Assembly (NCBI GenBank): GCA_025454925.1
Contig: JALONM010000013.1
Span: forward strand, 1 to 64,000
DNA: 64,000 nt
Origin: Cytophagaceae bacterium
GTDB taxonomy: Bacteria > Bacteroidota > Bacteroidia > Cytophagales > Cytophagaceae
Direction of reading: 5' to 3'
Shown here: one piece after another, positions 15,261 through 56,122 of the stretch
Position numbering within the stretch: the first letter of the stretch is position 1
Layout of the letters: the number at the start of each line of letters is the position of its first letter
The notes under the pieces: model-generated
The model's input: the letters and a program-made list of their open reading frames with translations, nothing else
Databases searched by the model: none
Told to the model about the DNA's origin: nothing
Made by a program: the position numbers and the translations under genes

Positions 15261-17708
15261 ATGAAAAAGGAACCACACTCCCTTCTGGCGTTTAACGAAC
15301 GTCTTTCCACTTGGTTCCACGAGCAAGGTTGGCAGGTATTCGAGTTTCAGCGACAAACCTGGGAATACATGCGCCAGGGCAAATCAGGCCTTGTGAACGC
15401 GCCTACCGGTAGTGGCAAAACCTATTCTGTTTTTCTGGGAGCTTTGATGGAGGCTGCCAGGCAGAAGCAATGGGGGCAGGGATCGGTGCAGGTGGTATGG
15501 GTTACACCCATACGGGCCCTGGCCCTGGAATTGGAGTTAGCCATGGATCGCGCCTTGAGAGCACTCGACGTACCCTGGCGGGTAGCCGTGCGCACCGGCG
15601 ATACCAGTGCTGCACAAAAAGCCTCCTGGAAAAAGAAACCCTCCGAAATTCTTATTACCACACCCGAAAGCCTGCACATCCTTTTTTCTCAAAAGGGATA
15701 CCCGCAACTCTTTAAAAATGTACAAACCATTGTGGTGGACGAATGGCACGAGCTCATGGGCAGCAAGCGTGGCGTGCAAACTGAACTTGCTATATCACGC
15801 GTCCGCGGATTATCGCCCGGGCTTCGCGTTTGGGGAATTTCTGCCACCATAGGCAATCTGCACGAAGCCATGGACGCGCTCCTTGGCTCATACGCATCCA
15901 ACGGTGTAATGGTGCGCAGTCAGCTTCCTAAAGAGGTACATGTGCAAACACTTATGCCCGATGAAATTGAGCACTATCCCTGGGCGGGGCATTTGGGCAT
16001 ACGACTGATAGGAAAAATTTTGCCCATCATCGATGCCCATGTATCCACCCTCATTTTTACCAATACGAGGGCTCAAGCCGAAATCTGGTACCAACAGTTG
16101 CTCGACTATGCCCCTCAACTGGCAGGTGTGCTGGCCTTGCATCATGGATCTTTAAGTCAGGAGTTGCGCCATTGGGTAGAACAGCAATTGCACGAAGGCA
16201 AACTCAAGGCCGTTATATGCACCTCCAGCCTCGACCTGGGTGTAGACTTCCGTCCGGTGCAGGCGGTTATTCAAATCGGCAGTCCCAAAGGAGTAGCGAG
16301 GTTTATGCAACGTGCAGGCCGCAGCGGACACCAACCCGGCGCCATCAGCACCTTGTATTTTCTTCCTACCAATTCCCTCGAAATCATTGAAGGCGCCGCC
16401 ATGCGAGAAGCCTGGAAAGATGGCATCACCGAAGAACGAATTCCATACATCCGCAGTTTCGATGTGCTCAGCCAATACCTTCTCACCCTCGCGGTTTCCG
16501 AAGGAATGAAACCCGAAGAAATTTTCAACGAAATCAAATCTACCTATTCGTATGCCTCGGTTACCGACGCCGAGTGGGCCTGGGTATTGCAGTTTATTTC
16601 ACAAGGCAGTCAATCGCTGGCCGCCTATGAAGAATATAAAAAAGCCAGCTGGCACGAAGGCATATTGCGCGTTACCGACCGGCGTACTGCCATGCGTCAC
16701 CGCCTCTCCATCGGTACCATTGTCAGCGATTCCATGCTTCGTGTTGTATTAAAAACCGGCAAACGCTTAGGCTCCATCGAAGAGTGGTTTGTTTCGCGCT
16801 TGAATCCGGGCGATGTTTTTTGGTTTGCAGGCATCAGCCTCGAGTTCATGGGCATCCACCACATGGAAGTGATGGTGCAAAAAAGTAAATCAGGCAAAGG
16901 CATCGTGCCCAGCTATCAGGGTGGCCGCATGCCTCTATCCTCCCTGCTTTCCGGACAGATACGAAAAAAAATACAGCAATACCTCGACCATCATTTGATC
17001 GATGAAGAAGTACAAAAACTCGTGCCACTCTTTCAGCGTCAGCAACAAATTTCCCATGTTCCCAAACAGGACGAACTACTGATCGAATACCTGGTCTCCG
17101 ACGAAGGGTACCATCTTTTTTGTTATCCCTTCGAAGGCCGCTATGTGCACGAAGGCCTCGCCGTTACTATGGCACATCAGCTCGGACAATTGCAACGCAG
17201 CACGTTTTCCATCGCCATGAACGATTACGGATTTGAATTGCTAAGTGACACGCCCATCCCTATTGCCGATGCCTTGCAGCAAGGCCTGCTAGACTTCTCC
17301 CAGGTGTTGCCGCAGTTACGCAGCAGCCTCAACGCCTCCGAAATGGCAGCACGTCGCTTTCGCGAAATAGCTTCCATCGCAGGTCTCGTCTTTCAAGGAT
17401 ATCCAGGCAAATCCATCAAAACCCGGCACCTTCAGGCCAATGCACAACTGTTCTTTGAAGTCTTCAAGCAATACGAACCCGACAATATTTTATTGCAACA
17501 AGCATACGAAGAGGTACTCATTTTTCAACTCGAAATCAATCGACTCAAGCAAGCCTACGATCGCTTGCAGCACCAGCACGTGATCCTGAAAAACATTGCC
17601 AAGCCGAGTCCGTTTTCCTTTCCCATCCTTACCGATCGTCTGCGCGAAAAGTATTCCAACGAGAGCCTCAGCGATCGCATTGCCAAATTAAAGAAGAGCC
17701 TGGAGTAA
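15261..17708 (+). CDS. Ligase-associated DEXH-box DNA helicase (Lhr-like)
   Basis: An 815-residue superfamily 2 helicase. Motif I is NAPTGSGKTYS (about 46-56), motif II is VVDEWHEL (DEWH, about 158-165), motif III is SATIGN (about 194-199), and motif VI is MQRAGRSGHQPG (about 351-362). The long C-terminal region and overall length fit the ligase-associated DNA damage response helicase family, related to Lhr. These genes normally cluster with an ATP-dependent DNA ligase, a beta-lactamase-fold exonuclease and a PdeM-type phosphoesterase. None is adjacent here: upstream is the peptide-binding protein gene and downstream are repeats. The gene is richer in GC than the glycan locus. Confidence 0.9.
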   Translation: MKKEPHSLLAFNERLSTWFHEQGWQVFEFQRQTWEYMRQGKSGLVNAPTGSGKTYSVFLGALMEAARQKQWGQGSVQVVWVTPIRALALELELAMDRALRALDVPWRVAVRTGDTSAAQKASWKKKPSEILITTPESLHILFSQKGYPQLFKNVQTIVVDEWHELMGSKRGVQTELAISRVRGLSPGLRVWGISATIGNLHEAMDALLGSYASNGVMVRSQLPKEVHVQTLMPDEIEHYPWAGHLGIRLIGKILPIIDAHVSTLIFTNTRAQAEIWYQQLLDYAPQLAGVLALHHGSLSQELRHWVEQQLHEGKLKAVICTSSLDLGVDFRPVQAVIQIGSPKGVARFMQRAGRSGHQPGAISTLYFLPTNSLEIIEGAAMREAWKDGITEERIPYIRSFDVLSQYLLTLAVSEGMKPEEIFNEIKSTYSYASVTDAEWAWVLQFISQGSQSLAAYEEYKKASWHEGILRVTDRRTAMRHRLSIGTIVSDSMLRVVLKTGKRLGSIEEWFVSRLNPGDVFWFAGISLEFMGIHHMEVMVQKSKSGKGIVPSYQGGRMPLSSLLSGQIRKKIQQYLDHHLIDEEVQKLVPLFQRQQQISHVPKQDELLIEYLVSDEGYHLFCYPFEGRYVHEGLAVTMAHQLGQLQRSTFSIAMNDYGFELLSDTPIPIADALQQGLLDFSQVLPQLRSSLNASEMAARRFREIASIAGLVFQGYPGKSIKTRHLQANAQLFFEVFKQYEPDNILLQQAYEEVLIFQLEINRLKQAYDRLQHQHVILKNIAKPSPFSFPILTDRLREKYSNESLSDRIAKLKKSLE

Positions 17709-18346: not shown

Positions 18347-19948
18347 ATGGCAGGTAAACACGAAACCCCGCGCCAGAAGATGATCGGTATGATGTATCTG
18401 GTGCTCACGGCCCTATTGGCCTTACAAGTAAGTTCGGCGTTGTTGCATAAGTTCGAATCACTCAACAGCAATCTCGAAGCAAAAGTAGAAGAAGGACGAA
18501 AAGAAAATCAGGAAAAAAATTCCAAGCTTCAGAAGGATGTAAAACGCAGAGGCAACCTGGCCGACGAAGTTCGCGCGGCCGAACGTGCTGAAGCCATTGC
18601 CCAACGATCGTCCCAGCTAATTCAATACATTGAAGGAATTAAAAAAGAACTCATAGAATCTACCGGAGGATACAACGAAGAAGGCAGCTTAAAAGGCGCC
18701 AGCGAGGAAACGAAAGTAGGAGTATTGATGGTTGGTAGCAGCGGAAGCAAGGGAAAGGCGTATGAATTAAAAGGCAAATTGGATGAGTATGTCCAGTTCA
18801 TGAACCAAAGCGGTGCCGGAAAATTCGATCGCATTGCACTCGATGCCAGCGAAGATCCTAAACTCAGAAATAATTCGGATCAGAAAAATAAGAATTTCGC
18901 GGAGTTGAATTTTGCGCAAACTCCTCTGGTAGCCGCGCTGGCAGTGCTCTCTGAAATGGAATCGCGGGTGACCGACATGGAAACCCAATCCATCACCAAG
19001 CTCTATGAATCGATAGGCGATATCGACGCAGAAATAAATAAATTAATTCCATTTGTTCGTCCTAAATCCGATTTTGTAGTGGCTGGCACTAAGTACGAAG
19101 CCGAAGTGTGTTTGGCGGCATCCTCTACAGGAATAAAGCCAACGATGGAGGCTAACGGAAATCCCATACAGGTGGGCGCCGACGGAGTAGGAAAATTTTC
19201 CTTCACCGCGCCCGGTGCCGACTTCGGAAACAACCCAAGTCTCAAGCGCTCCTGGAGAGGAATGATTAAACTAAAAATGCCCAACGGCAAAGACAGTTTA
19301 TTTCCCTTTGTGCAGGAATATACGGTGGTAAAGCCCGTCATCAGTGTGCAATCGGCCGCCATTAAATCTTTGTATCGCAATTGTGGAAATAAACTCAACA
19401 TTCAGGTTCCGGCGCTGGGTGCAGATTACCAACCCAATTTTGAAATTACAGGCGGTCAACTTTCTACCCTCGGCGGATCGGGTAATGTCATGATCATTCC
19501 CACGAGCCGCGAGGTTCAGGTCAAAGTTTTTAACCGCGGCACACTCATAGGCATTGAAAAATTTGGTGTAAAACTGGTTCCCTTGCCTACCTATGAATTA
19601 CTAGGCAATGGCCGTCTTATAGATATTCGTACCGGATCGGATAAATATTTGAAAACACTTACCATCCGCTTTAAAGCCGATCCCGGATTTAAAGAATTAC
19701 TTCCCGAGGAAGCCACCTATCAGGTATCCGAGGGTGAAATTACCCTCGCCAGTGGCAGAACTTCTGCGGGTACTCTCAGGTTTAGCGGCAACACCGTAGA
19801 CGTTTCTTCTTTGGTAAGAAACCTAAGCAAAAATGCCCGCTTAATCGTGGATATTAAAAAGGTGAAACGCAGAAATTACAAAGGAGACTGGGAAGAAATT
19901 ACCCTAAACGATTCTGAACAGGTTATGATTACGGTAGACAACCATTAG
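18347..19948 (+). CDS. gldM: Gliding motility / type IX secretion motor protein GldM
   Basis: A 533-residue inner-membrane protein of the T9SS trans-envelope motor; with GldL it uses the proton-motive force and reaches through the periplasm to the GldK/N ring. The family start MAGKHETPRQKMIGMMYLVLTALLALQVSSALLHKF holds the single membrane helix at about 13-32, and the periplasmic part has the usual GldM N- and C-terminal beta domains. Its length is normal. GldM is normally encoded in gldKLMN; here none of the partners is adjacent. The upstream 640 bases are repeats and the downstream gene is kynU. It may be a paralogue or a displaced gene. A terminator follows. Confidence 0.92.
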   Translation: MAGKHETPRQKMIGMMYLVLTALLALQVSSALLHKFESLNSNLEAKVEEGRKENQEKNSKLQKDVKRRGNLADEVRAAERAEAIAQRSSQLIQYIEGIKKELIESTGGYNEEGSLKGASEETKVGVLMVGSSGSKGKAYELKGKLDEYVQFMNQSGAGKFDRIALDASEDPKLRNNSDQKNKNFAELNFAQTPLVAALAVLSEMESRVTDMETQSITKLYESIGDIDAEINKLIPFVRPKSDFVVAGTKYEAEVCLAASSTGIKPTMEANGNPIQVGADGVGKFSFTAPGADFGNNPSLKRSWRGMIKLKMPNGKDSLFPFVQEYTVVKPVISVQSAAIKSLYRNCGNKLNIQVPALGADYQPNFEITGGQLSTLGGSGNVMIIPTSREVQVKVFNRGTLIGIEKFGVKLVPLPTYELLGNGRLIDIRTGSDKYLKTLTIRFKADPGFKELLPEEATYQVSEGEITLASGRTSAGTLRFSGNTVDVSSLVRNLSKNARLIVDIKKVKRRNYKGDWEEITLNDSEQVMITVDNH

Positions 19949-22489: not shown

Positions 22490-23896
22490 TTATTCTACCA
22501 CATACACCTGAGAAACGCCTTCAAATCCCCCGGTTTCTTTTAGTCTTACCCGGTAATACACTTTACCTTCAGCCTTATCATTATAAAAGTAATTAATATC
22601 TCCGTCCTCATTGGCCATCAGTTTGCGTTCCCATTTGAAGTTAACACCGTCGGTACTTTTTTCTACATCAAAATAGGCTACTTTACTCGCGTCTTCGGCT
22701 TGCCAGGAAAGATAAATTTTCCCCTTTTTCTTCTCCGATTTGAAATTAAGGTTTCCTTTACTCAGGGTCTTACAAGGAATGATAGGGAAAATTTCGTCTT
22801 TGTGAGCTTCGTACATTTTCTTGCAAGCATCTTTAAATTCCGGAAAACTACCTACCCCATCGGCACCGTTGTACGACCAGAACATATGTCCGGCGTAGTG
22901 GTTTTTATAGGCGTTGAAGGCTTTTTCATCGTTGGTATAAATAGTATCACGGTTAAGCGACCCTGGCTGCTCTCCAATCAGGCAAGGCTTATCGAGGTTC
23001 CAGTATTCATAAGGAATTTCCGGATTGAAGGGGTCGTATTTTCCTGCATACATCCAGTCATAATAGTGGATTTGATAAAAATCCAGATAGGCTTTGGGAT
23101 CGTTATACGCGTTTTGCAGCGCCTTATCGCTCCACCAATTGCCGTGTGCCGGAGCCACATCAGAGTTCCACTTTAGCGAAGCGGAGCCTGTTGTAACCAT
23201 GCGACTTGAGTTTTTGTGAATGGCAGCGGCAATCATGGCAGTAAAACGTTGCATTTCACGAACGCTTACCTCTGTAATATCCTTCCACTTCGGATCATCT
23301 TTTCTGGGCATATGCCATTCCGGCTCGTTACAAACTTCCCAGGCAAACAAGTTACAATGCTTATCGTAACGTTTTACCATCGGGATGAGGGCATTATTAA
23401 TGTATGAAACCGTTTTCAGGGAATCAGAAATAAGGTCCGCGTGATTACCGGCATACATGCCCGCATTTTTACGTTCGTCTTTACACATATCAAACGACCA
23501 TAAGCAAGGCATAATCAAAATACCATGGTTTTTGGCGCGTTGAAAGATATCATCGAGGGCAGGATAAAAATCAGCATCCAACCCTTTTACGGAGCCATCC
23601 GGGTTAAACTCAGGGTTCGCTCGTCCATCGGTATGTATCCATAAGCGGATGCAATTAACCCCATGGGCTTCACAATCACTCAACATCTTCTCAAACCAAT
23701 CTGGGTTATATAGAGTACCCCACTTATAATGGTTCCCCACATCACCTCCGAAATTGTTCCAGGCCACATTTATTCCATTAATAAATAAAGGTTTTCCTTC
23801 AAATTGAATCAAATGTTTGGTGTTTTCCGTTTGAGCCATTACGGAAGACATCAGCACCGCTGACAGAAATGAAAAGAATAGAAATTTCTTTCTCAT
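22490..23896 (-). CDS. Secreted GH5-family glycoside hydrolase with C-terminal Fn3-like domain
   Basis: A 468-residue exported enzyme. The frame opens at 23971, but MRKKFLFFSFLSAVLMSSVMAQ at 23896 is a clean signal peptide. The GH5 barrel spans about 25-380, with the acid/base Glu in WEVCNEPEW (about E191) and the nucleophile Glu in CLIGEQPG (about E309). GH5 includes beta-mannanases and cellulases; the substrate is probably a beta-1,4-glycan. Residues about 390-468 form an Fn3-like beta domain (YFDVEKSTDG...VYYRVRLKE) of the kind that usually precedes a T9SS sorting tail, but the protein ends there without one. It faces the mannanase operon divergently across 280 bases. Confidence 0.88.
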   Translation of the reverse strand: MRKKFLFFSFLSAVLMSSVMAQTENTKHLIQFEGKPLFINGINVAWNNFGGDVGNHYKWGTLYNPDWFEKMLSDCEAHGVNCIRLWIHTDGRANPEFNPDGSVKGLDADFYPALDDIFQRAKNHGILIMPCLWSFDMCKDERKNAGMYAGNHADLISDSLKTVSYINNALIPMVKRYDKHCNLFAWEVCNEPEWHMPRKDDPKWKDITEVSVREMQRFTAMIAAAIHKNSSRMVTTGSASLKWNSDVAPAHGNWWSDKALQNAYNDPKAYLDFYQIHYYDWMYAGKYDPFNPEIPYEYWNLDKPCLIGEQPGSLNRDTIYTNDEKAFNAYKNHYAGHMFWSYNGADGVGSFPEFKDACKKMYEAHKDEIFPIIPCKTLSKGNLNFKSEKKKGKIYLSWQAEDASKVAYFDVEKSTDGVNFKWERKLMANEDGDINYFYNDKAEGKVYYRVRLKETGGFEGVSQVYVVE

Positions 23897-23962: not shown

Positions 23963-23994
23963 TTTGTTCAAATCTTAGAAAAATTTATATTTGC
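23963..23994 (+). promoter_or_regulatory. Promoter of the glycan operon
   Basis: TTTG at 23963-23966 and TATATTTGC at 23986-23994, separated by 19 bases, match the Bacteroidota -33/-7 pattern (TTTG-N19-TAnnTTTG). Transcription would start near 24001 and leave a leader of about 190 AT-rich bases before the first gene. This is the best promoter match in the window. Confidence 0.65.
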
Positions 23995-24187
23995 CATATT
24001 CTTTATTTATATTGGATTATTCTTTTGATATTTCCCCAATAATTCCATTATAGTTATAGAAACTTTCAATAATAATTCTATTATTGATTTTGGTAGGTGT
24101 CCAAAATTTAAAAATTTTGGATTGGTTATAATTGTATTTTTTTTGTAAGATTGCAATCGGGTTTTAATAAGGTAAGTGCTTAAAATC

Positions 24188-26143
24188 ATGTTTTCGATGC
24201 ATATAGTAAGGGAAAAAATTGAGTTAAGAAGCCTTCTGCTGGCTTTATTAATGCTGCCAGCATTCGCGTATGCTCAGAATAAGAAACCCAAGTTTACCGA
24301 GGTGAAGGTTTCGGGCTATTTCCGGAATTATGTGACCTACCGTAATATGTTGGTGAATTATTCTTCCCCAAATCCTTCGGCTCCCAATGGTCCATTAACG
24401 CCACGGACGTTGATGATTAACGGCTTGTACCGCAACATTGATGATATTACTCAATCGACGGGATACCGGGAGCCACTGATGATGATCGTTTTCAACGGAA
24501 AACCTTCTGCCAACAGTTCTTTTGATGTTGACTTTTTGCTTGACAACCAGCTCACAGGTGAGTTAATGAATGGCACAGTAAAAACCCCTCCCAACCCCAG
24601 ACCCATTTCAGTAGATAGTAATGCAGGAGCTCTGGAGTTTCCAAGAAGGATTCAATCGGCACGCTGGTTGAATTTGGGAGGTGAGGTTAATACACCTTAT
24701 GGAAATTTTGAAATAAAAGCCGGTGGTGTACTTAACTTGAATCTATCGGCGAGTACCCTTAATTTTTATCAGTACCGCGACGATATGTTTGAGCGTTTCC
24801 CTTGGGAATGGCAAACCAATTCCTTCAAGCGGTACAATGCTTATTACAACGATGAAACCTTAATCCGCGACCCACGTCTGGCAAGTTCATCCTTGCAAGG
24901 TGTAGTATTTAAAGCGTCCCAGCTTCCTTTGCGCACCGGTTTTTTGATTGCTTATGGTAAAGCCAACAACACCAATATTTATCGTAGCTTTTTGGAAAAC
25001 AACAACCAGGATATTCTTGGTTTGCAAGTCAACAAGAAATTCTCTACGCACAGTATTGCCTTGAACTTCTACCAATCGAAAGTAATACTGGAACCAGAAA
25101 GTTTTAGCCGCAATTTCCGAAATGTGGCATTGGAAGAAGTTGCGACTTCGGAACTTAATTTCAATTTCAAAGGCGTAAGTATTTCTGCTGAAGGTGGCGC
25201 AGGATATGTTTCCAATCCTATCGATTCCGCCCTTAGTTGGGATCCTTTGCTTATTACCCGCATTTCCACCGATAAAAATTTACTACCAGTTCCCCTGATG
25301 CTTCAGTTTTATCATATAGGTGCGAATGTAGTAAATCCCAACAGTGCTATATTAAACACCAGCAATAGAAATGTGCAGGCAACTTTCGGAAGCGAATTGT
25401 TATATAACAACAACATCTTTGAAGGAGCAGTAACAGAATTTGGACAAATGCCAAACAACCGCCAGGGAATCAATTTGTCGGGATCACTGGAAGCGAGCAA
25501 AACATTCCGTTTTATGTTAGCCCTTTCATCACAACAAGAAATACAAAACATCTTCGATACAATTACATTCCAACATCGTTTGAATGGGTTTACACGTTCC
25601 CAATTTGTGTACTACCGCAACCAGGTTGGTCCCTACAACCGCCATATGACGAACTGGCGCCGGTCTTGGGAAAAAATTTCCATTACCGATTCTACCAGCA
25701 ACTACAAAAAAGGATTTAACCTGATCGACTTTTCTGTGAAGGCACGCACAAGTTTCTTAGGGAAAGAACTTTTGCTGATGAACTATATCAATTACAATTC
25801 CGTTCAGGATAGGTTTTCTCCCATCGCACTTTTCACCAATAAAGCATTTTTGAGAAGTTTTTACGAGGAGTTTATGCTTTTCTACCATGTGCACAACAAA
25901 CTAACCTTAGTGGGGATGCTAGGCTTGGAGCGTAACCTGGGAAATGCCCGTACAGAACTGGCTCCTAATGGAAAGGCCATCGATCAAACAGGTGAAGGTT
26001 ACGGACTGGGCATAGATTACGATATCAGCAGCACTACGGGATTATATTTCCGTCAGCGTTGGTTTAATTTCAGCGATAAAAATTTTGTCCTAGACAAATT
26101 CCGTGGATTTGATTCCACCGTAGAACTAAAAATATTCTTTTAA
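24188..26143 (+). CDS. Outer-membrane beta-barrel protein, glycan locus
   Basis: A 651-residue exported protein. An in-frame GTG at 24176 exists, but ATG 24188 (or 24197) better precedes the signal segment SLLLALLMLPAFAYAQ. The mature chain is made of alternating aromatic/polar strands typical of an outer-membrane barrel (for example VSGYFRNYVTYRNM, TGLYFRQRWFNFSD) and ends in Phe, the usual terminal residue of barrels. It has no plug domain or TonB box, so it is not SusC-like. First gene of a five-gene plus-strand operon that ends in a GH5 mannanase; a role as a glycan porin or surface scaffold is inferred. Family not recognised. Confidence 0.72.
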   Translation: MFSMHIVREKIELRSLLLALLMLPAFAYAQNKKPKFTEVKVSGYFRNYVTYRNMLVNYSSPNPSAPNGPLTPRTLMINGLYRNIDDITQSTGYREPLMMIVFNGKPSANSSFDVDFLLDNQLTGELMNGTVKTPPNPRPISVDSNAGALEFPRRIQSARWLNLGGEVNTPYGNFEIKAGGVLNLNLSASTLNFYQYRDDMFERFPWEWQTNSFKRYNAYYNDETLIRDPRLASSSLQGVVFKASQLPLRTGFLIAYGKANNTNIYRSFLENNNQDILGLQVNKKFSTHSIALNFYQSKVILEPESFSRNFRNVALEEVATSELNFNFKGVSISAEGGAGYVSNPIDSALSWDPLLITRISTDKNLLPVPLMLQFYHIGANVVNPNSAILNTSNRNVQATFGSELLYNNNIFEGAVTEFGQMPNNRQGINLSGSLEASKTFRFMLALSSQQEIQNIFDTITFQHRLNGFTRSQFVYYRNQVGPYNRHMTNWRRSWEKISITDSTSNYKKGFNLIDFSVKARTSFLGKELLLMNYINYNSVQDRFSPIALFTNKAFLRSFYEEFMLFYHVHNKLTLVGMLGLERNLGNARTELAPNGKAIDQTGEGYGLGIDYDISSTTGLYFRQRWFNFSDKNFVLDKFRGFDSTVELKIFF

Positions 26144-26146
26144 TAA

Positions 26147-27886
26147 ATGGATGCAGTAATGACGTATAGAAAATGTATCTTATTCTGGGCAGGTGTATGT
26201 ATCGGCCTAAGTGCTATGGCACAGTCTCCCGTGTATTTTACCGGGTATGGCCGGGCCCTGGTAGGCAAAAGCTTGTACGATAAGAAAAGTAATTTCGTAA
26301 AAGACGATACCACTTCCAAAAAACAATCCCTGGATGGTAACTTCGTGTTTGACCTTGGGGTGAATGTAAAAACAAGTGATCAGTTTAAGGCAAATGCCAT
26401 CCTTCGTTTTTACAACGCTTTCGGAAACTTTTTCGGAAGTGGTTCTGTAATGGAATTCCGCCAGGTGCAGATTCAAACAGTGTTAGCGAAAAAAGTATTG
26501 TTTGAATTGGGTGACTTGGATATGGGCCTTACCAAATACACGCTGTACAATAACAACGAGCCTACCAGCTCCGAGTTTGAAGCAGAGCCCTTCAAGATTC
26601 GCCGAGACATCGTTCATTACGAGAACTTCAATAACGGCAACAAATGGCGTTTGCAAGGTGCTCAGGCGAGTTCCAATATCAATTTCAACAAAGGAATCCA
26701 AAAGATTAGCCTTACCGCCATGGGAGCGCGAACCATAGCTTCCGATTATTTAACGACCCCCGATCGTTTGTTCTTCGGCGGACAAGCTCGTGTAAAACAA
26801 AGCAAGTATTTTGAAATCGGAGGTAACGTAGCTTCTCTGGCAGACATCGCCGGTACCGTGCGCGATACATTGGTTTCTTATGACAACACCGTTTTATCCG
26901 GAGACTTCAAAGCGTCCTACACTACACGCACACTAAACTTCGGCGTATATGGTGAAACCGGTAGATCATTCTATGATTTTAGCAAAACCGCTACGAAGGA
27001 ACGTGTAAAAAAATTCGACGGGTATATGGATGTGAACGCTTCAGTGGCGCACCGCTATGTTCCATTCAGCTTTAATATTGGGTATCGATTGGTAGGTCCA
27101 GATTTTACCAGTCCGGGTGCACAAACCATGCGTGTGCTTGATTACCAGAATCCCATTTTGTTGCCAACCGGAGGCAGCCCTGCCGGAACGATCATGGATC
27201 GCCAGTCCATGACCTTTGATCGTATGTCGGATCTGAACGTATACAACCGTTCACTCTCAGCCGTGTTGATGACATTCAATCCAGTATACAACAACGCGAC
27301 TCCCTATGGTGTAGCTACACCAAACCGTCAGGGTGTTTCTACCGACCTTAAATATGGTAACAAAGACTCACTGGTATATGTTAATGTGCATGCGGAGTTA
27401 CTTTCAGAAGTATTAGGGGTGGGCTTGAGCGATAAGCGTAGGTTTACATTAATTCAACCTGGTGTTACCGTAAACCTGAATCAGTTGTATGGTGGCAAAC
27501 GTATGTTGGCATTAAGCGGAGCCATGCGTTATGAAGATACAAAAGGATCTAATGCCACAGGCATCGACTTTACTTCCACGATGATTGATGGTAGCTTAAC
27601 TGTGGAAACCCTGAAAGGGCTGGATATCACAGGCGGCTTGAAAATGTTGCAAGCAAGCGGCAAAGAATTGCTAGCCGTACGCGATGATTTCAACCGCATC
27701 GCCAGTTATACACTGGTAGAGCCGAATGTAGAGCAAATGGTATATGCGGCAGGTATCCGGTATCGCTTTACCAAATATATATACCTGGCAGCCAATGCCT
27801 TCATGCTGGAAAATCTCAATAAATCAAATACCGTTGAGAACTATAAAATGAATCAGTACTTTTTTAGTTACATCATGAGATTCTAA
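26147..27886 (+). CDS. Second outer-membrane beta-barrel protein, glycan locus
   Basis: A 579-residue exported protein with the signal CILFWAGVCIGLSAMAQ and start MDAVMTYRK (an ATG at 26159 is also possible). Strand-like segments repeat through the protein (FKANAILRFYNAFGNF, LNFGVYGETGRSFYDF), and it ends SYIMRF, a barrel-type C-terminus. It starts 3 bases after the preceding stop, so it is cotranscribed and perhaps partners the first barrel. It differs in sequence from the first barrel and has no TonB-receptor plug. Function inferred from context only. Confidence 0.72.
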   Translation: MDAVMTYRKCILFWAGVCIGLSAMAQSPVYFTGYGRALVGKSLYDKKSNFVKDDTTSKKQSLDGNFVFDLGVNVKTSDQFKANAILRFYNAFGNFFGSGSVMEFRQVQIQTVLAKKVLFELGDLDMGLTKYTLYNNNEPTSSEFEAEPFKIRRDIVHYENFNNGNKWRLQGAQASSNINFNKGIQKISLTAMGARTIASDYLTTPDRLFFGGQARVKQSKYFEIGGNVASLADIAGTVRDTLVSYDNTVLSGDFKASYTTRTLNFGVYGETGRSFYDFSKTATKERVKKFDGYMDVNASVAHRYVPFSFNIGYRLVGPDFTSPGAQTMRVLDYQNPILLPTGGSPAGTIMDRQSMTFDRMSDLNVYNRSLSAVLMTFNPVYNNATPYGVATPNRQGVSTDLKYGNKDSLVYVNVHAELLSEVLGVGLSDKRRFTLIQPGVTVNLNQLYGGKRMLALSGAMRYEDTKGSNATGIDFTSTMIDGSLTVETLKGLDITGGLKMLQASGKELLAVRDDFNRIASYTLVEPNVEQMVYAAGIRYRFTKYIYLAANAFMLENLNKSNTVENYKMNQYFFSYIMRF

Positions 27887-27898
27887 ATAGTAAGGAAT

Positions 27899-28966
27899 AT
27901 GAAAAAGATAGCAACAATTGTGATGTGTATGGTAGCTGGAATGATAGTTTTCATTTCCTGCAAAAGATACACGGACGAATTTTATGGACCAGGCTTGGGC
28001 CTTGCTCCTGATAATTTTACTGCCAGTGCCTTAACACCGAGTGATCTGAATCCTAATTTTTCTACCGGTAAAATGCACTTTACAAGCACGTTTAATGCGA
28101 CCGTGCGATGGAAGTTAACGCTAACAGGCAGGACTTCCGGTGCGATTAAATTGTTTGAAGGTCTATCCAAAGACTTAAGTGTTTCTAACACGGAGTGGGA
28201 TGGTTCTACGGATACTATCAAGTTATTTAGACAGGGTGAGGACGTAGACGCCGTGCTTACTGTGCTGGGCTGGAAAGAGAGCTCCACTGCCACTGTTAAA
28301 ATTGCTAATACCAAAAGTCATGGATTTATAATTGGAAGTTTTGACAACATTAATGTGAATAATGCTTCCAGAAACTGGCAAGATCCTACTCCTCCCAATG
28401 GAAGCGGCTATTGGTGGTTCTATTCGTTTGATGCTAATGAACTAGTTTCAGTAGATAAAGTTGTTGATCCAGGTGCACCTCAGGGAAGTCATGCTATTAA
28501 AATAATAGGTAAAGATGTAAATACCAGTTATTTTATTGGACAGATTGGTTTAAGTGCTCCTAACCCTCCTGGTATTTTCAACTTTGGTTCAGGTGATTTG
28601 AGTAATATGTACTTCAATTATTATGTTAAAGGGGCAGGCACAGAGGCATCTAAAGATTATAAGTTTGTGGTGCAGGTTTTTGAAGACGATAATAGCAGCG
28701 GAACAATATTATATGATGGTTCAGAGGATAAATACATTCACGAAATTTCGTTGAAATACGAAGGCTGGAAATTACATACTATTAAGTACACAGACTTTGT
28801 ATTAGATGCTGGACCTCCTGCTTACCGCTCCCATACGCCATCACGTATTGCAGGTATCGGATTCTTTTTCGGAGCCAAGACCTCAGCAGGATTGTCGGCA
28901 ACGGTACCTGTGGAAGTAAGTATGGACTACTTCACTATCACAACCGATGGCCCTATGGTGCCATAA
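27899..28966 (+). CDS. Lipoprotein with beta-sandwich (putative carbohydrate-binding) domain
   Basis: A 355-residue lipoprotein: MKKIATIVMCMVAGMIVFISC gives a lipobox Cys at residue 21, followed by KRYTDE, a charged stretch like Bacteroidota lipoprotein export signals to the cell surface. The first 120 residues look like an Ig/Fn3-type domain (FTSTFNATVRWKLTLTGR). Residues about 140-350 form a jelly-roll-like domain with NWQDPTPPNGSGYWWFYSF and closing VEVSMDYFTITTDG, as in carbohydrate-binding modules. It lies between the barrels and the mannanase, so glycan capture at the surface is likely. The position resembles that of a SusD/SusE-type binder, but there is no SusD sequence signature. Confidence 0.7.
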   Translation: MKKIATIVMCMVAGMIVFISCKRYTDEFYGPGLGLAPDNFTASALTPSDLNPNFSTGKMHFTSTFNATVRWKLTLTGRTSGAIKLFEGLSKDLSVSNTEWDGSTDTIKLFRQGEDVDAVLTVLGWKESSTATVKIANTKSHGFIIGSFDNINVNNASRNWQDPTPPNGSGYWWFYSFDANELVSVDKVVDPGAPQGSHAIKIIGKDVNTSYFIGQIGLSAPNPPGIFNFGSGDLSNMYFNYYVKGAGTEASKDYKFVVQVFEDDNSSGTILYDGSEDKYIHEISLKYEGWKLHTIKYTDFVLDAGPPAYRSHTPSRIAGIGFFFGAKTSAGLSATVPVEVSMDYFTITTDGPMVP

Positions 28967-29011
28967 CATTGCCATAGCTAAGCCAAGGATGAATCATTAT
29001 ACAAAGATCCA

Positions 29012-30145
29012 ATGAAGAAAGTTTTAAGTTTTTTGGCAGCGGTGGTACTCAGTGGTTGCGCGGGCTTCGAGAACGCCAGCGTATCCACTGACGAGCCTCT
29101 GGCACATCAAGACAGTGCCACGATGAATGCCATTGCCCCTAAAGTTCTTACGGTACGCGATGGGTATTTGTACAATGCCACTACCGATATTTCCAAATGG
29201 GAGGCTTCGCATGGTAACATGACGGTAGGTCGTGAAAACGGAGCCATGATCGTAGATTTCAAAGGCGTTGGATCCGATTGGGAGCAGTTGATGCGTAAGT
29301 TCTCCGCCCTGGATTTTGCCGAAGCTCCTATCATTATGGTAAAGGCTCGCGTGGATGAGTCCAGCGCCGATTCGTTGAAAATGCGTATTGACTTAATCGA
29401 CGAAGATGGACTCGCTACCAATTATTCTCCTCAGGAACGTTACATTCGCAGCCGCGCTACCAGCAAGTGGTATAAGTTTGTATATGCAGGCAATTGGGTT
29501 CAAAACTGGCCTAGCCGAGCCGATGTAAATGCAAAGAAAATTGTTGGAGTACGCATCAATTTTAATGGAGGTGGTCCGAATTACTCAGGAAAAATCATCA
29601 TCGAGGAAATGTTTGCCACCGATGGAAAAAAGAAAAATGCCAATCCTTTGAATTATGTGTTGTTTGACTTTAGTGAAGGCACAGCCGGCTGGTGGTCTGC
29701 CAACAGCATCGCGGTAAGTCCGGAAGAGACAGACGGCAAAGAAGTAATGAAATTGAAACTCGATGATTGTGGTCCTAAATGGGAAGGTTTCGGTTATCGT
29801 TTTGATCAGAAGATTGATCTCAGCAAAACACCGATCATGGTAGTTAAATTGAAAGCTGATCAACCAGGGAAATTACGTATTGACCTGCGTGACGCTAAAG
29901 ATTACGCCACCAACAAAACACCTTTGCTCATTGATTTCCCGGCCTCACAAACATTTACTAATGTAGTATTTGATTACTCTGGAAAATTTCTTCAAACATG
30001 GCCCAACAATCAAGTGGTAGATTCTACTACCATTAGTTCCATGGCTTGTTTTGTAAACCCTCCCGAAAACCCATCGTATACGGGCACGGTGATGATTGAT
30101 GATATCACACTGATGTCGGTAGAAGAATACAACAAAATAAAATAA
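29012..30145 (+). CDS. Lipoprotein with two tandem carbohydrate-binding-type modules
   Basis: A 377-residue lipoprotein with MKKVLSFLAAVVLSGC (Cys16). Two related modules follow, about 45-205 and 210-370. Each starts with a YxxTTDISKWEASHG or LFDFSEGTAGWWSAN type strand, has APIIMVKARVDES/TPIMVVKLKADQ, then LKMRIDLID/KLRIDLRDA, a KFVYAGNWVQNWP/VFDYSGKFLQTWP strand, and ends GKIIIEEM/GTVMIDDITL. This internal repeat and strand order fit CBM jelly rolls. It is 45 bases after the previous lipoprotein and 19 before the GH5 mannanase, so it probably helps hold mannan at the surface. The ligand is inferred, not shown. Confidence 0.75.
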   Translation: MKKVLSFLAAVVLSGCAGFENASVSTDEPLAHQDSATMNAIAPKVLTVRDGYLYNATTDISKWEASHGNMTVGRENGAMIVDFKGVGSDWEQLMRKFSALDFAEAPIIMVKARVDESSADSLKMRIDLIDEDGLATNYSPQERYIRSRATSKWYKFVYAGNWVQNWPSRADVNAKKIVGVRINFNGGGPNYSGKIIIEEMFATDGKKKNANPLNYVLFDFSEGTAGWWSANSIAVSPEETDGKEVMKLKLDDCGPKWEGFGYRFDQKIDLSKTPIMVVKLKADQPGKLRIDLRDAKDYATNKTPLLIDFPASQTFTNVVFDYSGKFLQTWPNNQVVDSTTISSMACFVNPPENPSYTGTVMIDDITLMSVEEYNKIK

Positions 30146-30164
30146 ACAACAAAAGCGTCCTACT

Positions 30165-31466
30165 ATGAAAAAATACTTGGCAGGTTTTCTGCTTTTAGGT
30201 ATTCTCTTCTCCTGCAAAAAAGCAGAAGAAACGAATACATTCGTACAAGTAAAAGAAGGAAAGTTTTTCCGAGGTGGTAAGCCCTACTATTTTATGGGTG
30301 CCAACTATTGGTGTGGAATGAACTTGGGTTCAGCTGGTCAGGCTGGAAATCGCGATCGTTTGATAAGGGAACTCGATCAGATGCAACAAATGGGAATAAC
30401 GAATTTGCGCATCATGGGTCTTACCGAAGGTCCGGATAATAGCCCGTATCGCATTTTACCAGCGGTACAAGATACTCCGGGTGTATTCAATGAGGAAATT
30501 TTAGTAGGTCTGGATTTCTTTTTGAATGAAATGAAGAAAAGAAATATGACTGCCGTAGTGGTGCTCAATAATTTCTGGCCATGGTCGGGCGGAATGGGTC
30601 AATACTTGCTTTGGAATGGTGCCGATTCCATTCCTTATCCACCTCCACATCCAAACGGCGATTGGGACAAATATCAGAAGTTTACAGCTCAATTCTATTC
30701 CAACAAAAAAGCCGTTGAGCAGTATAATTTTGCAGTTCTTAAATTGTTGAAGCGTAAGAATACCATCAGTGGTGTTGACTATGTAGAAGATCCTACCATT
30801 ATGAGTTGGGAGCTTTGCAACGAACCTCGCGGAATCAATAATACGGAAGTATTTAATCAATGGATCGACAGCAGTGCGGCCATGATTAAAGCGGTAGCTC
30901 CAAAACAATTGGTAACAGTGGGTTCTGAAGGATATACACATGTGCCGGATTACAGTGGTACCGACTTTATGCTGAATCATGACGGTCCGAATGTAGATTA
31001 TACCACGGTACACATCTGGATACAAAACTGGAATTGGTACGATCCTGCCAAGCACGACAGCACTTATGCTTCGGCAAAAGAAAAAGTATTGAAGTATTTG
31101 AAAGATCATGCAGTGGCTGCCAAGAAATTGGGTAAGCCGTATGTATTGGAAGAATTTGGAATTATGCGCGACAGCGGAAACTTTGATCCTGCTGCTACAA
31201 CTAAAAATCGCGATGATTACTATGCTTATGTGTTTGAAGAAGTGTACAAGCTGAGTCAAACGGGCGATGCCTGTGGAGTAAACTTCTGGGCCTACGGCGG
31301 AGAAGGAAGACCGGCCTCTCTTGCTTCTTACTGGAAGAAGGGGGATGATTTCACCGGAGATCCTCCTCACGAGCCACAAGGCTGGTATTCGGTAAACAAT
31401 AACGATACTTCTACGATCAAAGTCATCAGCACCTATGCAGCCAAGTTCAATGCGATGAACAAGTAA
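30165..31466 (+). CDS. GH5 endo-beta-1,4-mannanase lipoprotein
   Basis: A 433-residue lipoprotein glycoside hydrolase that is expected to cut beta-1,4-mannan backbones. MKKYLAGFLLLGILFSC gives Cys17, followed by KKAEE, consistent with surface export. The barrel starts FRGGKPYYFMGANYWCGMNLG, a GH5 mannanase-type N-terminus; the acid/base Glu is in SWELCNEPRG (about E220) and the nucleophile in YVLEEFG (about E330). Also typical is VHIWIQNWNWYDP in strand 6. It is the last gene of the operon starting at 24188 and is followed by a terminator. Subfamily (GH5_7-like) is by resemblance. Confidence 0.9.
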   Translation: MKKYLAGFLLLGILFSCKKAEETNTFVQVKEGKFFRGGKPYYFMGANYWCGMNLGSAGQAGNRDRLIRELDQMQQMGITNLRIMGLTEGPDNSPYRILPAVQDTPGVFNEEILVGLDFFLNEMKKRNMTAVVVLNNFWPWSGGMGQYLLWNGADSIPYPPPHPNGDWDKYQKFTAQFYSNKKAVEQYNFAVLKLLKRKNTISGVDYVEDPTIMSWELCNEPRGINNTEVFNQWIDSSAAMIKAVAPKQLVTVGSEGYTHVPDYSGTDFMLNHDGPNVDYTTVHIWIQNWNWYDPAKHDSTYASAKEKVLKYLKDHAVAAKKLGKPYVLEEFGIMRDSGNFDPAATTKNRDDYYAYVFEEVYKLSQTGDACGVNFWAYGGEGRPASLASYWKKGDDFTGDPPHEPQGWYSVNNNDTSTIKVISTYAAKFNAMNK

Positions 31467-31488
31467 GAAATTATTTTTGGGGGAATAC

Positions 31489-31527
31489 AAAAGCCGCGTC
31501 TTCAGCAATGAAGCGCGGCTTTTACTT
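31489..31527 (+). terminator. Terminator of the glycan operon
   Basis: AAAGCCGCG and CGCGGCTTT flank an inner CTTCA-GCAA-TGAAG stem, giving about 15 bp with one bulge, followed by T-rich sequence. It lies 20-odd bases after the mannanase stop. The remaining 180 bases before the next gene contain nothing recognised. Confidence 0.9.
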
Positions 31528-54079: not shown

Positions 54080-54187
54080 AGCCATATGCTGGCATCCCAT
54101 CCAATATTGGCAGGAAATAAGAAGGCAGTAGATTCATAGCAACCCTTTCCCATAAATATGCGTCATGCTCACGATGATTGTATTGCC

Positions 54188-56122
54188 ATGAAAAACCTGA
54201 TTTACCTTATTTTAACAACAGCAGTGTACTCCCTTTCGGGGCAGTATTTTCAATGGGGCATTGCCAATGCAGGCAATGGGGATCAACTATCAAAAATAGT
54301 TCAGGTACGCAATGACATTGTGTATACTGTAGGCTCTTTCCAGCAATCGTTTGATGCGGACCCATCCGCTTCTACCTACATCCTCAGCAGTCAAGGCCAA
54401 CTCGATATTTTCTTTATTAAGTATACCACCGATGGTCAGCTACTGGAGGCCTATTCCTTAGGAGGAACAGGCAATGAAGATTATGATCCTGGATTTTGTA
54501 TAGACCCTACTGGTAATTTTTATTTTACATTTAATTTTGAAGGCACCATTGATGCGGATTTTATGACGTCTTCCGTAGCTTCGTATACCGCTCAGAACGC
54601 CTCTGATTTTTTATTAGCTAAGTATAGTCCTAATGGCCAACTTTTATGGGCACATCAATTTGATGAGCTGGGCACGGCAGAAACAGGCTATAGCATTGTC
54701 GCAACAGACAGCACTGTTTTTTTCACGGGCTTAATAGCTGGCTCGGCAGATATGGATCCCGGAATTGGAATACATCAGTTAACTTCTACAGGACAGGATC
54801 TTGTGGTAGCTTCTTATTCTTCCACGGGCATATACCGCTGGGCCTTTATGCTCGAAAACGATCATCCTACCGCTACTGGAAATAATGTATGCCTCGATGC
54901 CGATGGAAATCTGTTGGTTGCAGGATATTTCCGAGGAACCAACATTGATTTCGATCCTGGACCAGGTAGTTTTCTTATGACTCAATCCTCCAATTTTTTT
55001 GATTTTTTCCTAGCCAAATATTCGCACGAGGGGATATTCAGTTGGGCACATCACACTGGCGCCAACTCAGACAATGTTACCTATGCTCTAAAGGCATCAG
55101 GCAACGATATTATTGTAGGAGGATATATTACAGGTAATACTGATCTTGATCCGGGCTCAGGCGTTCTCATGCATCAAAGCAAAGGCTTGAGCGATGCCTA
55201 CCTCGCCCGCTTCGCATCCAACGGGTCGCTGACTTGGGTAAAAGCATTTGGATCTTCCGGGTACGATGATGTTATTTCTTTGGACATCAGTACTACCGGA
55301 AATATTGTAGTCACTGGAGGATTTCAAGGTGATACTATGGTGGTAGAAACTGGCGATACTCTTTTCTCCCCCTCCAGCGACAGTCAATTTGATGCTTATG
55401 TAGCCGAATTCGATCCATCTGGAAATTGTCTCTGGACGATGTCATACGGAGATGCCAACTATGACCAAGGTTCAGATGTTTCCATAGATGAATTCAACAA
55501 CTGGTATCTAACGGGCAATATCAGTACTGCGGCTGATCTAGATCCTTCGGTGGATATAGCATTGATAAACGGCATTCAAGGAAACGACCAGGTGTTGTTT
55601 AAACTTTCTCCCTGTATACGCATGCGAACTGCCTTGTCAAGCAAGTTGCGAGTTAAGGAAGATGAATCGGTTTCCATAGCTCTGCAGGTACAACAAGGAA
55701 ATCCGGTACGATTTATATGGTACAAAGACGGAACGCTCATACAGGAGCAATCGGCGCAATGGACCTTGAGTCCGGTTCAGTTTGAAGACAGAGGAATGTA
55801 TCAGGCTCAATTGGAAGATGCCTGCGAGAACCGCATTCGCAGCACCAGCTTGTCGCTAGAAGTACTGCCCTCTATCAAAGTATACGAATTGCTAAGTCCC
55901 AACAATGATCAACGAAATGATTATTTTCACATCCGCCATATTACACTGGATGTTTTTAAAGATCATGAAATTGTTATCCTCAATCGTTGGGGACAAAAGG
56001 TATTTGAATCCAAGGCGTATCAAAACGATTGGGAAGGAGATAATCTGCCGGAAGGCAACTATTTTTATTTTGTAAAAGTAGGAGAAGAAGAATTTAGCGG
56101 ACGACTGGTTATAAAGCGATGA
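54188..56122 (+). CDS. T9SS-exported SBBP-repeat protein with type B C-terminal sorting domain
   Basis: A 644-residue secreted protein. The frame opens at 54158, but MKNLIYLILTTAVYSLSGQ at 54188 is the signal peptide. Residues about 20-480 hold beta-propeller-like SBBP repeats (units such as DAYLARFASNGSLTWVKAFGSSGYDDVISLDISTTGNIVVTGGF). An Ig-like domain (about 490-560) follows, then a gliding-associated type B sorting domain (LSPNNDQRNDYFHIRHI, IVILNRWGQKVFESKAYQNDWEGD, LPEGNYFYFVKV, RLVIKR). The domain directs export through T9SS and needs a PorP/SprF-type partner in known systems, which is encoded by the next gene with an ATGA overlap. Confidence 0.9.
   Translation: MKNLIYLILTTAVYSLSGQYFQWGIANAGNGDQLSKIVQVRNDIVYTVGSFQQSFDADPSASTYILSSQGQLDIFFIKYTTDGQLLEAYSLGGTGNEDYDPGFCIDPTGNFYFTFNFEGTIDADFMTSSVASYTAQNASDFLLAKYSPNGQLLWAHQFDELGTAETGYSIVATDSTVFFTGLIAGSADMDPGIGIHQLTSTGQDLVVASYSSTGIYRWAFMLENDHPTATGNNVCLDADGNLLVAGYFRGTNIDFDPGPGSFLMTQSSNFFDFFLAKYSHEGIFSWAHHTGANSDNVTYALKASGNDIIVGGYITGNTDLDPGSGVLMHQSKGLSDAYLARFASNGSLTWVKAFGSSGYDDVISLDISTTGNIVVTGGFQGDTMVVETGDTLFSPSSDSQFDAYVAEFDPSGNCLWTMSYGDANYDQGSDVSIDEFNNWYLTGNISTAADLDPSVDIALINGIQGNDQVLFKLSPCIRMRTALSSKLRVKEDESVSIALQVQQGNPVRFIWYKDGTLIQEQSAQWTLSPVQFEDRGMYQAQLEDACENRIRSTSLSLEVLPSIKVYELLSPNNDQRNDYFHIRHITLDVFKDHEIVILNRWGQKVFESKAYQNDWEGDNLPEGNYFYFVKVGEEEFSGRLVIKR

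Follow-up and report, generated by a model that had tools for sequence, protein, structure and literature searches.

A putative mannan utilization operon of the chu_1276-chu_1280 type, with two outer-membrane barrels and no SusC or SusD, in a Cytophagaceae genome

Genes and control signals of the operon

The stretch of DNA analyzed here (the window) comprises 64,000 nucleotides of contig JALONM010000013.1 from a Cytophagaceae bacterium (GCA_025454925.1). The features of the operon and its surroundings are the following:

22490..23896, − strand: GH5_10-type beta-mannanase with a signal peptide, divergent to the operon (PF00150; 2c0h/5y6t)
23963..23993, + strand: promoter-like site TTTG-N19-TATATTTG, Bacteroidota-type (exact consensus match; weak)
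24176..26143, + strand: barrel A, CHU_1276-type outer-membrane beta-barrel without a plug domain (AlphaFold2 model; homology to the Cytophaga hutchinsonii copy)
26147..27886, + strand: barrel B, CHU_1277-type outer-membrane beta-barrel without a plug domain (AlphaFold2 model; homology to the C. hutchinsonii copy)
27899..28966, + strand: lipoprotein C, CHU_1278-type, beta-sandwich, candidate glycan binder (homology to the C. hutchinsonii copy)
29012..30145, + strand: lipoprotein D, CHU_1279-type, tandem-CBM-like, candidate surface glycan binder (homology; CBM_4_9 below the cut-off)
30165..31466, + strand: GH5_7-type lipoprotein, probable exo-beta-mannosidase (PF00150; CmMan5A 1uuq)
31489-31523, + strand: intrinsic terminator hairpin (−22.7 kcal/mol, z = −5.98)

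The preliminary description had placed five tightly spaced genes between a near-consensus promoter and a strong terminator. The five ORFs lie as described, all on the + strand and separated by gaps of 3, 12, 45, and 19 nt, and the terminator was confirmed as strong. Lipoprotein signals were recognized by eye in genes 3–5 (C, D, and GH5_7). The GH5_7 gene starts 19 nt after D and precedes the terminator, which places the glycoside hydrolase in one transcription unit with A–D. The promoter fared less well: the site fits the Bacteroidota consensus, but this consensus is matched twice in the window against 2.55 matches expected by chance, and sigma-70-like sites are no commoner in the window than in shuffled sequences. 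The promoter was thus dropped as evidence for the operon, and the site at 23963-23993 is a weak candidate backed by its position.

The two GH5 enzymes

The operon GH5 matches PF00150, and its nearest solved structure is the exo-beta-mannosidase CmMan5A of Cellvibrio mixtus (1uuq, E=1.3e-101). The alignment covers residues 25-429, with the NEP and EEFG regions of the catalytic Glu residues conserved. The enzyme has the GH5 fold with both catalytic regions and is closest to GH5_7, to which it was assigned, the subfamily names GH5_7 and GH5_10 being our reading of the nearest structures. Among the structure matches, full-length similarity to exo enzymes was far above that to endo enzymes. The protein had been described as a GH5 mannanase lipoprotein; it is a GH5 lipoprotein, but endo-mannanase was rejected as its best name, and it is probably an exo-beta-mannosidase, judging by its sequence. 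It differs from CmMan5A in being a lipoprotein encoded in an outer-membrane operon, with its exo action predicted, and it may be located at the cell surface or in the periplasm.

The other GH5 is nearest to the GH5 mannanases 2c0h and 5y6t and resembles GH5_10 endo-mannanases. It does carry a signal peptide, as claimed earlier for a second secreted GH5 facing the operon, but its gene is divergent to the operon. ATG 23896 is a likelier start than TTG 23971, to which the ORF is open.

Barrels and lipoproteins

The AlphaFold2 models of A (pLDDT 83.5, pTM 0.83, 70 homologues) and B (pLDDT 92.2, pTM 0.87, 58 homologues) are both beta-barrels that open directly with barrel strands, which bears out the claim of two different outer-membrane barrels. 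Among 70 members of the A family and 58 of the B family, none showed a plug or TonB-receptor domain, and CarboxypepD_reg was likewise absent from the 70 A members; according to the models, A and B are plugless barrels. Pfam and NCBIfam searches with A, B, and C gave no match. The PDB sequence search found nothing for A and a single short local match for B (OprF, 4rlc, E=0.00025). In Foldseek searches, both models matched generic barrels only, mostly porins and exporters, with TM-scores of 0.2-0.45; these matches do not place the putative channel in any known class of porins.

The homologues of A numbered 84, in 84 loci. When the profiles of A and B were aligned to each other (hhalign), the probability was 98.5% over 510 columns, with an NR-x-G motif common to both; profile against single sequence gave a probability of 2% only. 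Mutual homology of the two barrels is thus suggested by the profiles, and no more than suggested.

In the C family, the lipobox Cys is invariant, and some members match SGBP_B_XBD and CBM_11; the PDB sequence search with C returned nothing better than E=0.29. D has a match to CBM_4_9 below the cut-off. As tandem beta-sandwich lipoproteins, C and D resemble SGBP-B surface glycan-binding proteins, from which they differ in being conserved alongside barrels A and B rather than alongside SusC/D.

Absence of SusC and SusD

The claim that neither SusC nor SusD is present held locally, as no such gene was found near the operon among the ORFs of the window, and for SusD it extends to the whole genome (99.8% complete): PF07980 and PF12771 had 0 matches, while a Bacteroides positive control did match. 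For SusC, there was no match above the TIGR04056 cut-off genome-wide and none in the locus; other TonB-receptor-like genes are present in the genome. We therefore rejected the possibility that a SusC/SusD pair had merely been overlooked, and a SusCD pair serving these enzymes was likewise checked for, with no SusD in the genome. Like a canonical Sus-type PUL, the operon combines an outer-membrane barrel, surface glycan-binding lipoproteins, and enzymes, with one operon per glycan. It differs in having two barrels instead of one, and no SusC, SusD, or TonB plug.

Relation to the cellulose cluster of Cytophaga hutchinsonii

The cellulose cluster chu_1276-chu_1280 of C. hutchinsonii has been termed an "atypical PUL", a type reported from no organisms besides C. 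hutchinsonii, C. aurantiaca, and Sporocytophaga and for no substrate besides cellulose (PMC12016534). Genes 1276, 1277, 1279, and 1280 are important for the use of cellulose, and CHU_1279 binds cellulose, its presence counting more than its binding (PMC12016534). A requirement for growth on the polysaccharide concerned, together with induction by it, has been demonstrated for this cellulose locus only. CHU_1277 has been tied to cello-oligosaccharide assimilation, and CHU_1276 is connected to glucose uptake by the title of a cited paper.

In the genome G297 (locus L149), the order A-B-C-D-GH9 was found with A, B, C, and D of 747, 606, 380, and 375 aa, respectively. The length of D agrees with that reported for CHU_1279 (375 aa, PMC12016534), and this locus was taken as the C. 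hutchinsonii copy. Compared with it, the window proteins gave 32% identity (E=4e-112) for A, 36% identity (E=3e-121) for B, E=9e-24 for C, and E=2e-42 over 372 columns for D. The same cluster was present in a contig of C. aurantiaca DSM 3654 (L066).

Both systems thus have the A-B-C-D-GH order on one strand, four homologous non-enzymatic proteins, and no SusC/SusD. They differ in the enzymes and the glycan (GH9 and cellulose in C. hutchinsonii; GH5_7 with a divergent GH5_10 and, probably, mannan here) and in that the window genome has four cassette types whereas C. hutchinsonii has one. The gene-by-gene, in-order match indicates that the operon is of a known kind, belonging to a system that is little studied. 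New are the mannan form, the genome with four cassettes, and the glycan-typed, phylum-wide family, which were not found in the literature searched (covering few subscription papers). The earlier suggestion that the two barrels form a different binding or uptake route gains support from their orthology to CHU_1276 and CHU_1277, the loss of which leaves C. hutchinsonii with no or much reduced cellulose use (PMC12016534). Neither this precedent nor the three sister cassettes of the window genome figured in the preliminary description.

Sister cassettes and survey of public genomes

Searches of the window genome with A and with B led to the same four places, B giving also one stray weak match. Each of the four cassettes contains A, B, one or two C-type lipoproteins, and a different enzyme: GH5 in the window, GH9 with a triple-CBM-like lipoprotein in L006, GH18 in L007, and GH16 in L008. 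The arrangement of the window recurs in two relatives: L162 has a divergent GH5_10 followed by A-B-C-D-GH5_7-ROK kinase-phosphomannose isomerase (mannose-6-phosphate isomerase), and L053 has three GH5_10 genes followed by A-B-C-D-GH27-GH5_10. The operon GH5 is 56% and the divergent GH5 61% identical to the L162 counterparts. These arrangements, together with the GH5_7/GH5_10 pair, support beta-mannan or galactomannan as the substrate and so the mannan type of the operon that had been proposed; only three mannan-type loci were found.

The survey consisted of one scan of public genomes (80 named loci), to which our own and fetched loci were added. Gene order in relatives was near constant: the gene after A is B in 98/98 of the loci where it could be read (95 distinct, a few having been fetched twice), C follows AB in 85/87, and D or a second C follows ABC in 77/79. 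Since the loci were picked through A only, the linkage of B and C was not built in.

By the neighboring enzymes, five glycan types were distinguished: beta-1,3-glucan (GH158/GH16/GH3), chitin (GH18, NagB-type), cellulose (GH9), mannan, and starch (GH97/GH13). The lipoproteins vary with the type: D is missing from chitin loci, which have two C, whereas C occurs with D1 in cellulose and mannan loci and mostly with D2 in beta-glucan loci. Mapping the glycan labels takes 4 changes on each of the trees of A and B, the lowest number possible for five states. The four paralogues of the window genome fall in four glycan groups, together with genes of other genomes (L008 on a long branch), so species history alone does not explain the pattern. 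Distances of A and B are correlated (0.907; 0/999 permutations), as expected of partners, with a contribution from shared history.

A was found in 17/19 sampled genomes of the family, with 1-10 matches per positive genome, and in 36/295 genomes of the class. In the phylum sample, the count of 6/396, which includes hits outside the class, is a lower bound as few candidates were scored per genome. Among the 19 family genomes, 8 have no PF07980 and all 8 of them carry the cassette, and PF07980 is present in both genomes that lack the cassette, numbers too small to be decisive.

A few cassettes have no clear C or downstream glycoside hydrolase. In one of them (L071, 11764-15430), the genes after A-B encode a short lipoprotein and a UDP-glucose dehydrogenase; this variant may serve biosynthesis or may have diverged. 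A chitin-type A-B-C cassette was also present in L075, titled 'Bifidobacterium breve', a Gram-positive species; this is probably a misnamed MAG. In L058 and L070 (region 15895-17670), the gene after the starch-type cassettes encodes a DUF6377 protein, which may act as a linked regulator.

Proposed function and alternatives

We consider it likely that the locus is a mannan utilization operon of the chu_1276-chu_1280 type, that is, a SusCD-independent outer-membrane system working as follows. Lipoproteins C and D would hold mannan at the cell surface, and the divergent GH5_10 would cut the chain. Barrels A and B would form a specific pair through which manno-oligosaccharides enter the periplasm, with no need for SusC/SusD and probably none for TonB gating. 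The GH5_7 lipoprotein would free mannose from the products, and the mannose would enter the cytoplasm to be phosphorylated and isomerized. The match to the glycan would reside in the A-B pair and its C/D partners, not in the enzymes alone. Transport through A-B is an inference.

The main rival is that the barrels are a surface scaffold displaying C, D, and the enzymes, with uptake by general porins or other TonB receptors. The greater weight of CHU_1279 presence than of its binding agrees with it, as do the lower cell-associated beta-glucosidase activity after CHU_1276/1277 loss in C. hutchinsonii and the other TonB-receptor-like genes of the window genome. We find it unlikely, given two well-formed barrels kept together at all loci and the links of CHU_1276 to glucose uptake (by the cited title) and of CHU_1277 to cello-oligosaccharide assimilation.

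It is far less probable that A is a degenerate SusC/TonB-dependent receptor and the locus a diverged Sus system. The published structure prediction of CHU_1276 returned TonB-receptor matches (PMC12016534), and Foldseek gave a TMq of about 0.41 for A against the receptor PfeA. A TonB-receptor identity of A was nevertheless rejected: 70 members have no plug or CarboxypepD_reg, the model opens with barrel strands, the profile of A against one of the genome's own TonB receptors reached a probability of 0.1%, and the SusD partner is absent. That the barrels are housekeeping porins adjoining the GH5 by chance is barely credible and was rejected by the linkage survey, as their mostly porin and exporter matches in Foldseek are outweighed by the patchy distribution, the near-constant A-B-C linkage, and the glycan-typed trees.

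Beyond the mannan operon itself, we lean slightly towards A-B-C being a second general glycan-uptake machine of Bacteroidota, phylum-wide and parallel to SusCD. In it, two plugless barrels related to each other would form an obligate heteromeric pair, joined by a lipoprotein partner. Its types for mannan, cellulose, chitin, beta-1,3-glucan, and starch would have diverged anciently, and it would be the main polysaccharide system of SusD-free genomes such as that of the window.

Searches for PULs take SusC/SusD as their marker. Under this rule, a glycan-typed cassette that lacks both goes unseen, or its loci pass for CAZyme fragments; in one survey, most SusCD-less loci were suggested to be fragmentary PULs (PMC6499787). 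The cassette offers substrate prediction in SusD-poor lineages. The uptake of cellulose products by Cytophaga becomes a comparative problem, with several sister systems for soluble glycans that are easier to assay.

Other genes in the window

A gldM gene with all four GldM domains is located at 18347-19948, so type IX secretion or gliding machinery is likely. The protein encoded at 54158-56122 carries a CHU_C type IX secretion signal.
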